Source: Boletus sp. NGJ (Eukaryota; Basidiomycota; Agaricomycetes; Boletales; Boletaceae). Taken from it: a DNA stretch of 46,869 bases. The notes under the pieces are model-generated. The model saw only the letters and a program-made list of their open reading frames with translations, did no database searches and was not told the origin of the DNA. Made by a program: the position numbers and the translations under genes. Shown in pieces: positions 9,288-10,118 of this stretch. The stretch lies in the NCBI GenBank assembly GCA_019096195.1, contig JAGTXK010000171.1, forward strand, positions 1 through 46,869, written 5' to 3'. Within the stretch, counting starts at the first letter, position 1. Each line of letters starts with the position of its first letter.

Positions 9288-10062
9288 CTACACTTCTACT
9301 TCTTCTTCCTCTCCCTCTTCACTCTCCTCTGCATCCTCTTCTATCACCTCCATGGCCAATTTGGCCAACTCCACCTCCACTTCCTTCTCCTCCGCTTCCT
9401 CTATCTCCTCCTCCGCCTCCTCACTTCCATACACCTCCTCCACCTTCAACTCCACCAGGTGCTCCAGCAGGGAGTTCTGCCGGTTGAGCCGCCTGTTCTG
9501 CGACTTCAGGGCATCCCGGATCTCCCGAAGGATCTCTGAGAGCCCCGCCATCACTCCCGACCCCACCTCATCTCCTCTGGAGCCGCTAGGCCCCGCCTCG
9601 TCCCCTCCTACCCTTCTCCGCTTCCTCTGCCTCTCCGGTTGCTCGTCCCCGGGCCGCTCGCACTTCGCCTTCGCATCACGGCACTTGACGCACGACTTTG
9701 ATTTCCCGGGCCCGAGTACACACTCGAGCCCCGGTGTTCAGCAGTGGAGCACTGCTGCTCCGCCGACGCCCTCTTCTTCCCTTGTACGACGCTCTGTCGC
9801 GCCCGTACCTCCTCCACCTGTCATTCCGTTAGCTCTGATGCCCTCCGAGTGCATTGTCACTCACCCTTCTGATGGCCTCCTCCTCAGCCTCTTGACACAC
9901 CCTTTCCGCCTCCTCGCGTACCCTCCTCTCCGCCTCCTCCTTCTGGACCCGGATCCTTCTCTTTCGCTCGGAGTACTTGGCATTGCCGAGCTTCTCGTCG
10001 TTGTCCTCCTTTTCCAGGAGCTGTTCGTCGGACCAGTTGATGAGGTTGTCGATGTCATACAT
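9288..10062 (-). pseudogene. Antisense accessory ORF of the retroelement (helix, Zn-cluster-like Cys motif, acidic tail), frameshifted
   Basis: On the minus strand an ORF begins at ATG 10062 (MYDIDNLINWSDEQLLEKED). It is followed by a charged helical stretch rich in Glu, Arg and Lys that looks like a coiled coil (to about 9832). After a stop/frame change the translation contains QCSTAEHRG. After one more frame change it reads ECVLGPGKSKSCVKCRDAKA and KCERP (about 9725-9670). The second half is C-x2-C-x6-C; the first half looks like C-x2-(C to A)-x6-C, so together they resemble a fungal Zn2Cys6 cluster. The C-terminal part continues as GLSEILREIRDALKSQNRRL and ends in a very acidic tail with stop at 9288. 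A TATA box lies about 50 nt upstream. Function unknown. I have an unverified impression that similar hypothetical proteins are common in Agaricomycete annotations. Confidence 0.75.
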
Positions 10063-10110
10063 GGTAGGGAATAAGGGTAATGCAGAATTGACCAGGGCAC
10101 ACCCTTGCCC

Positions 10111-10118
10111 TTTATATC
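10111..10118 (-). promoter_or_regulatory. TATA box for the antisense ORF
   Basis: On the minus strand the sequence reads GGATATAAAGGGC, a clear TATA element, about 50 nt upstream of the antisense ATG at 10062. It lies inside the element but outside the LTR, so the antisense ORF has its own predicted promoter. Confidence 0.6.

Follow-up and report, generated by a model that had tools for sequence, protein, structure and literature searches.

A predicted spliced antisense gene with a zinc-cluster-like cysteine array in a Ty3/gypsy retrotransposon family of Boletus sp. NGJ

Boty-like elements carrying the gene brtn were reportedly described by Zhao et al. in 2011. In the accessible parts of the literature, brtn is presented as an antisense gene of these elements in Botrytis cinerea (PMC7264820, PMC8365987, PMC4227169, PMC5987419). 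The locus described here resembles them in being a fungal gag-pol element with a chromodomain and an added antisense gene, which in Boty lies between pol and the 3′ LTR according to the accessible text of PMC7264820; it differs in that the Boty host is Botrytis, and our likening to BRTN follows published descriptions, not sequence. In plants, Grande gene23, RIRE2, Retand TRP28 and PvRetro13 are likewise described, in the available parts of two articles, as antisense, situated between pol and the 3′ LTR and kept in most copies of their families; the same excerpts credit the Grande gene with its own promoter and a nuclear protein, and propose a regulatory role for the plant antisense ORFs (PMC7264820, PMC11963269). 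For Retand, 97% of clusters are stated to have antisense ORFs with TRP28, which is thought to bind DNA (PMC11963269, accessible part). The plant proteins, however, are described there as having another domain, and Retand as belonging to a non-chromovirus lineage; neither the word “zinc” nor the word “intron” is present in PMC7264820 or PMC11963269. Outside retrotransposons, HTLV-1 encodes in antisense a regulator of its own provirus, HBZ, whose domain (bZIP) is of a DNA-binding type, but by the abstract openings available HBZ belongs to a retrovirus, its transcript starts in the 3′ LTR and its domain is a bZIP rather than a zinc cluster, and we use it as an analogy only. Within the literature searched (best-matching titles and abstract openings, with few subscription journals), we found no fungal element with a zinc-cluster gene in antisense and no permuted Zn2Cys6 domain. 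Antisense accessory genes are known elsewhere; new, as far as this literature reaches, are an intron-bearing gene of predicted zinc-cluster type, the swapped order of its halves and a CGGAGT word common to the LTR and the gene's own promoter.

The window, by which we mean the whole stretch of 46,869 nucleotides analyzed (contig JAGTXK010000171.1), contains an LTR element that by its sequence is a decayed Ty3/gypsy chromovirus-like one. Its LTRs are direct repeats of 570-571 nt with 92.3% identity, located on the plus strand at 3538-4108 (5′ LTR) and 10217-10786 (3′ LTR). Plus-strand pieces matching Retrotrans_gag (4815-5249), RVT_1, RT_RNaseH_2 and RT_RNaseH (reverse transcriptase and RNase H, 6423-7659, frame decayed) and the integrase core rve (8150-8449) all scored above the Pfam cut-offs and follow one another in the order RT, RNase H, integrase. 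The end of pol, with the chromodomain region, occupies 8913-9239 on the plus strand and finishes at a stop codon at 9237-9239. The Pfam scan of the window's own pol end gave no match, and the pol end of a sister copy (L002) matched SH3_Tf2-1 with 61.9 bits and Chromo with 21.1 bits, the latter under the cut-off of 25.1. Both LTRs have the form TG...CA, yet the 5 bases flanking them differ (GCAGT at 3533-3537, CTTAG at 10787-10791) and form no target-site duplication, possibly as a consequence of recombination between elements. Adjoining the element is a minus-strand ORF of 1001 aa (11331-14336) with tetratricopeptide repeats and a CHAT domain.

A first-pass annotation of this DNA had noticed a minus-strand ORF, drawn as one piece at 9288-10118, with a TATA box about 50 nt before its ATG. 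Minus-strand coding capacity is indeed present between the pol stop codon and the start of the 3′ LTR at 10217, and a TATAAA box at 10116-10111 precedes the ATG at 10062 by about 50 nt. The antisense gene itself therefore stands, but not its outline, as we find two exons separated by a 47-nt intron, in a copy that is broken. Exon 1 (9865-10062, minus strand) encodes 66 aa including the charged N-terminus and is open in the window copy. The intron (9818-9864) is in phase 0 and reads GTGAGT ... CTAAC ... ACAG. Exon 2 (9288-9817) encodes a six-Cys array, a basic stretch, a helical segment and an acidic tail; here its first Cys triplet (9720-9751) is interrupted by a frame break and an in-frame TGA is also present, while the second triplet, CVKCRDAKAKC, lies at 9660-9692. 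Since 47 is not a multiple of three, the exons are in different frames and are joined only by splicing. The intron, the frame break and the TGA rule out a single continuous ORF from 10062 to 9288. Only 48 bases separate the stop codons of pol and of the antisense gene, in line with the convergent arrangement noted initially. Transcription and splicing as drawn are inferred from these sequence signals.

The same signals recur in other copies in the genome (32.8 Mb, 141 contigs searched). We aligned 33 rows, comprising 32 of the 42 places with DNA matches (window included) plus C1, obtained from the protein matches; L005, whose gene lies in two pieces, was for that reason not aligned at the DNA level. 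The splice donor is GTGAGT in 28 rows, GTAAGT in 2, GTAAAT in 1 and ATGAGT in 2, and the acceptor is CAG in 31 and TAG in 2, so that the intron ends are GT..AG in 31/33; a CTAAY branch-like word is found in 32/33 and the 47-nt length in 24/33. The start codon is ATG in 27/33 rows, and the TATA box reads TATAAA in 24/33 and TACAAA in 5/33. In four of the 33 rows (L010, L014, L043 and L053) both exons are open and combined with an ATG and a GT-AG intron, and 2 more miss the start codon only. We consider it almost certain that a spliced antisense gene between pol and the 3′ LTR is real.

Individual copies differ in how they have decayed. Two of them, L006 (C107:28155-29018) and L007 (C107:68692-69555), are oppositely oriented, some 40 kb from each other, and have identical stop positions in the antisense gene, which suggests that an already decayed copy was duplicated. 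In L049 (C22:2416252) and L050 (C119:21504), exon 2 and the intron are kept and most of exon 1 and the promoter are replaced by unrelated sequence, as if these copies had recombined with another element. Differences between copies are often CG to TG or CA (judged by eye, uncounted), and look like decay through cytosine methylation or a RIP-like process.

We identified 42 DNA matches (the window's own included) and 48 protein matches to the antisense gene in this genome, both counts including pieces of single copies. Sister elements without the ORF, or cysteines and frame that were unconserved, had been named at the outset as what would speak against the gene; instead it adjoins, in convergent orientation, 39 of 42 same-family chromodomain matches chosen among the matches listed. 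These 42 represent one piece per element, taken from 50 rows with at least 67% identity among the matches listed, and the antisense set used in the count consisted of 42 of the 48 protein-match rows, overlapping pieces being left out. Two of the 39 chromodomain matches, on C118, share one antisense gene and are probably one element, giving a stricter count of 38/41. The gap from chromodomain match to antisense gene, measured to the ends of partial matches, is 42-112 nt in 33 of the 39 cases and 163-1294 nt in the other 6. As for the three exceptions, the chromodomain match on C133 is followed by a 197-bp remnant of the gene and then by a junction to other element sequence; the one on C94 has a match of another family 600 nt away, a hint of nested insertion; and the one on C6 is a short fragment. 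Conversely, 4/42 antisense matches have no family chromodomain neighbor among the matches listed. Beyond the family, no six-Cys ORF of at least 70 aa was found in the 1.5 kb after pol of four diverged Ty3 elements (L056-L059, being 4 of 100 rows with at most 42% identity among the chromodomain-region matches listed). Across these matches, the antisense gene is present in nearly every family member examined.

Codon models for same-genome copies indicated that both exons are under purifying selection at the protein level, a check that had been proposed in the first-pass annotation. In the predicted frame, omega was 0.348 for exon 1 (9 copies) and 0.366 for exon 2 (13 copies), and fixing omega at 1, with the tree and kappas held, cost 12.9 and 50.4 lnL units, respectively. 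The copies were picked for a long open exon 2, a choice that removes stops and does not by itself lower omega, and in-frame stops were masked in the exon 1 test. The five other frames of exon 1 gave omega values of 0.87-1.88, the lowest belonging to the sense mirror frame. Those of exon 2 gave 1.35-1.72 except in the mirror frame, the sense frame whose third positions face the antisense third positions, where omega was 0.49. This exception is expected because pol itself shows the same mirror effect: for the pol C-terminus, omega was 0.470 in the coding frame and 0.521 in the mirror frame (14 of 20 loci used, 19 having matched and 14 of these over at least 150 aa).

The four open copies encode a protein of 245-250 aa. 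From its charged N-terminus it continues with C-x2-C-x6-C-x9-C-x2-C-x6-C, a basic stretch, a second helical segment and an acidic tail with 20-24 Asp/Glu among the last 50 residues. The charged N-terminus, the C-x2-C-x6-C motif and the acidic tail were thus read correctly from the window alone, and what had been taken for a half-mutated second copy of the motif is damaged, as stated, but is actually the first half of the six-Cys array. Conservation of the paired motif, also proposed as a check, is borne out by the alignment: Cys codons 1 to 6 are kept in 31/32, 30/33, 31/33, 33/33, 33/33 and 31/33 rows, and the whole array is found in all four open copies and, within the first open part of exon 2, in 19/33 rows. 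Successive homologue searches of 5.8 billion proteins (jgi and ena sources) returned 1, 2 and then 31 proteins. Among the 31 relatives from public contigs, the array is complete in 8, and another 7 have the second triplet and a Cys before it; of the remaining 16, 8 start inside the array or past it and 8 are without one or more Cys or the spacing. Searches of viral contigs found no relatives. The ENA homologues P0002-P0019 and P0024-P0028 are largely near-identical to one another, the pattern that a multi-copy family in another organism would give. No Pfam family above cut-off pointed to a captured enzyme or env-like domain, and this idea was dropped. A sequence search of solved structures yielded helix-type and other unrelated matches and no zinc-cluster protein. 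AlphaFold models contained long helices and gave no confident fold for the Cys region in the two proteins P0001 and P0007, with confidence below 50 across most of that region in P0001 and, in P0007, below 50 in the first triplet and about 57 in the second.

With Gal4-type Zn2Cys6 proteins (PF00172), the antisense protein shares two C-x2-C-x6-C triplets, basic residues in one half, helices, an acidic region and CGG-type candidate sites; unlike them, it has its halves swapped and its cluster mid-protein, and it is encoded antisense by a mobile element. The Zn2Cys6 architecture proposed in the first-pass annotation is accordingly retained as a Zn2Cys6-like six-Cys array, but not in the canonical order of halves. 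In the Gal4 and Lac9 controls, the first triplet matched Zn_clus positions 1-18 and the second 15-39 or 16-35, the normal order in 4/4 pieces. By contrast, C-terminal triplets of the antisense protein (L002, L010, P0002 and P0007) matched positions 1-18 or 1-15 and N-terminal ones (P0007, P0013 and P0020) positions 15-31 or 20-33. Altogether 7 of 16 half pieces matched, all seven in swapped order, and 9 of 16 gave no Zn_clus match. With 12.9-17.3 bits the matching pieces score low and stay under the cut-off of 21; the one from P0013 matches an unrelated TiaS zinc ribbon (15.3 bits) about as well as Zn_clus. Among the whole proteins scored, only P0007 exceeded the cut-off, with 22.4 bits; P0002, P0013, P0001, P0004 and P0020 reached 14.9, 15.0, 9.0, 10.1 and 9.5 bits, and two proteins of the window's genome 10.0 and 10.7. 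A Zn_clus match at E ≤ 1 was obtained for 6 of the 21 relatives scanned. The canonical order, in which CxxCRxxKxKC comes first, is not that of the antisense protein, and formal membership in PF00172 fails because the halves are swapped. From the array and the half matches we infer a Zn2Cys6-like protein with permuted halves that may bind zinc, and consider it probable that this is a zinc-cluster-like DNA-binding protein.

CGG is a half-site of many Zn2Cys6 proteins. By eye we spotted the word CGGAGT, and we counted CGGAGT, TGGAGT and CAGAGT on both strands as CGGAGT-type words, CpG often being TpG or CpA. The window has ten of these in each LTR (the 3′ LTR reads TATATAAA from 10512) and three on the minus strand upstream of the antisense TATA box (10128-10166, starting at 10128, 10146 and 10161). 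The 32 LTRs counted, each matched over 540 nt or more, hold 9.25 words per LTR (range 6-10) versus 1.45 in dinucleotide shuffles, and the 80 nt that precede the antisense TATA box hold 2.52 words (range 1-3, 29 copies) versus 0.09. Gag-pol is also enriched, with 3.44 words per 570 nt versus 1.24 in shuffles; the density in positions 11001-46869 of the window is 0.52 per 570 nt, and four stretches of other Ty3 elements have 8 words in 6004 nt. Under the same tolerant count, CGGAGT ranks first of 553 one-CpG hexamers both in LTRs and in antisense promoters, in a ranking made after the word had been spotted and on related, non-independent copies. Even where identity to the window's LTRs falls to 71-82%, 6-10 words per LTR are retained. 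Between diverged LTRs, conservation at CGGAGT-type words and at other LTR positions was not significantly different (0.90 vs. 0.78, p ~0.13; exact words 0.350 vs. 0.347). CGGAGT is therefore a lead rather than proof, being enriched yet not significantly better conserved than its surroundings, and we regard it as a candidate binding word for the antisense protein. An inverted CGG-N3-CCG pair was dropped, as it occurs 0.00 times per LTR and 0.07 times per promoter.

Taken as a working model, these features would describe a Ty3/gypsy family that carries a minus-strand accessory gene with an internal TATA box and one intron. Its protein would be nuclear, with six cysteines holding two zinc ions in the style of Gal4-type Zn2Cys6 proteins, the halves in swapped sequence order, and with flanking helices that dimerize it. 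The permuted cluster might bind the CGGAGT words, which number up to three ahead of the gene's TATA box and some nine to ten per LTR, and the acidic tail could act as an activation region contacting the transcription machinery. In this way the protein would tune both sense transcription of the element and its own promoter, as HBZ does in HTLV-1, through either activation or feedback repression. Of the readings considered we prefer a self-encoded zinc-cluster regulator that acts on the LTR and its own promoter through CGGAGT, and judge the case for it evenly balanced. The more specific version is tentative, and we lean somewhat against it: a sequence-specific transcription factor, activating or repressing, whose Zn2Cys6 domain is circularly permuted and whose CGGAGT targets lie in the LTR and its own promoter, forming an autonomous self-wired circuit in a fungal LTR retrotransposon, would include the first permuted fungal zinc cluster in the literature searched.

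The first-pass annotation had suggested a transcription or integration regulator encoded by the element family, and we retain the integration variant as a rival. In this version the protein would be a nuclear adaptor for chromatin or integration, in which a coiled coil and a zinc cluster tether the integration complex or the cDNA to DNA. Its gene adjoins the chromodomain end of pol, long helices are predicted and a zinc cluster could equally serve tethering, but a TATA box separate from the gag-pol promoter, an acidic tail and the concentration of CGGAGT in the LTR and the gene's own promoter all fit regulation better, and we consider the adaptor unlikely. LTRs are often driven by host factors. 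CGGAGT might then be a site for such factors and the antisense gene a captured host transcription-factor gene, which the element keeps as a decoy or a passenger. In fungi Zn_clus is a domain of host proteins, with 21 matches in the window's genome, none of them at an antisense-gene place; the swapped halves, the many near-identical variants among the ENA-contig relatives, as in a mobile family, and the maintenance of the gene under selection within a mobile family argue against capture, making it quite unlikely in our view.

Other alternatives dispense with the protein. It may be the antisense RNA that matters, since the gene faces the 3′ portion of the element on the opposite strand and its transcript would overlap the genomic RNA, leading to dsRNA silencing or antisense control, a possibility raised for plant elements in the accessible part of PMC7264820. 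Selection at the amino-acid level in two exons lying in different frames, together with relatives that have the same Cys array, makes this explanation very unlikely. The antisense frame might instead be a shadow ORF, open through base composition or because of a real sense gene. For this one can cite the 240-aa sense ORF of the window (9352-10074) and the omega of 0.49 in the exon 2 mirror frame; against it, the mirror omega of exon 1 is 0.87 versus 0.35 in the antisense frame, pol has a mirror effect of the same kind (0.47 and 0.52), and the intron signals, the TATA box, the Zn_clus-like halves and the relatives all fit the antisense strand. A chance or shadow ORF is largely refuted by the frame omegas and the pol control, and seems to us hardly credible.

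According to its abstract, PMC7264820 treats the possible roles of antisense genes in LTR elements as undetermined. For the self-encoded regulator proposed here, the encoded protein resembles a DNA-binding regulator and a candidate word can be named; as the LTR and the gene's own promoter are both short, the question of role may be reduced to a simple binding or reporter test. If the reading is true, the exchange of its halves would make this zinc cluster a natural test case for the requirements of the Zn2Cys6 fold.
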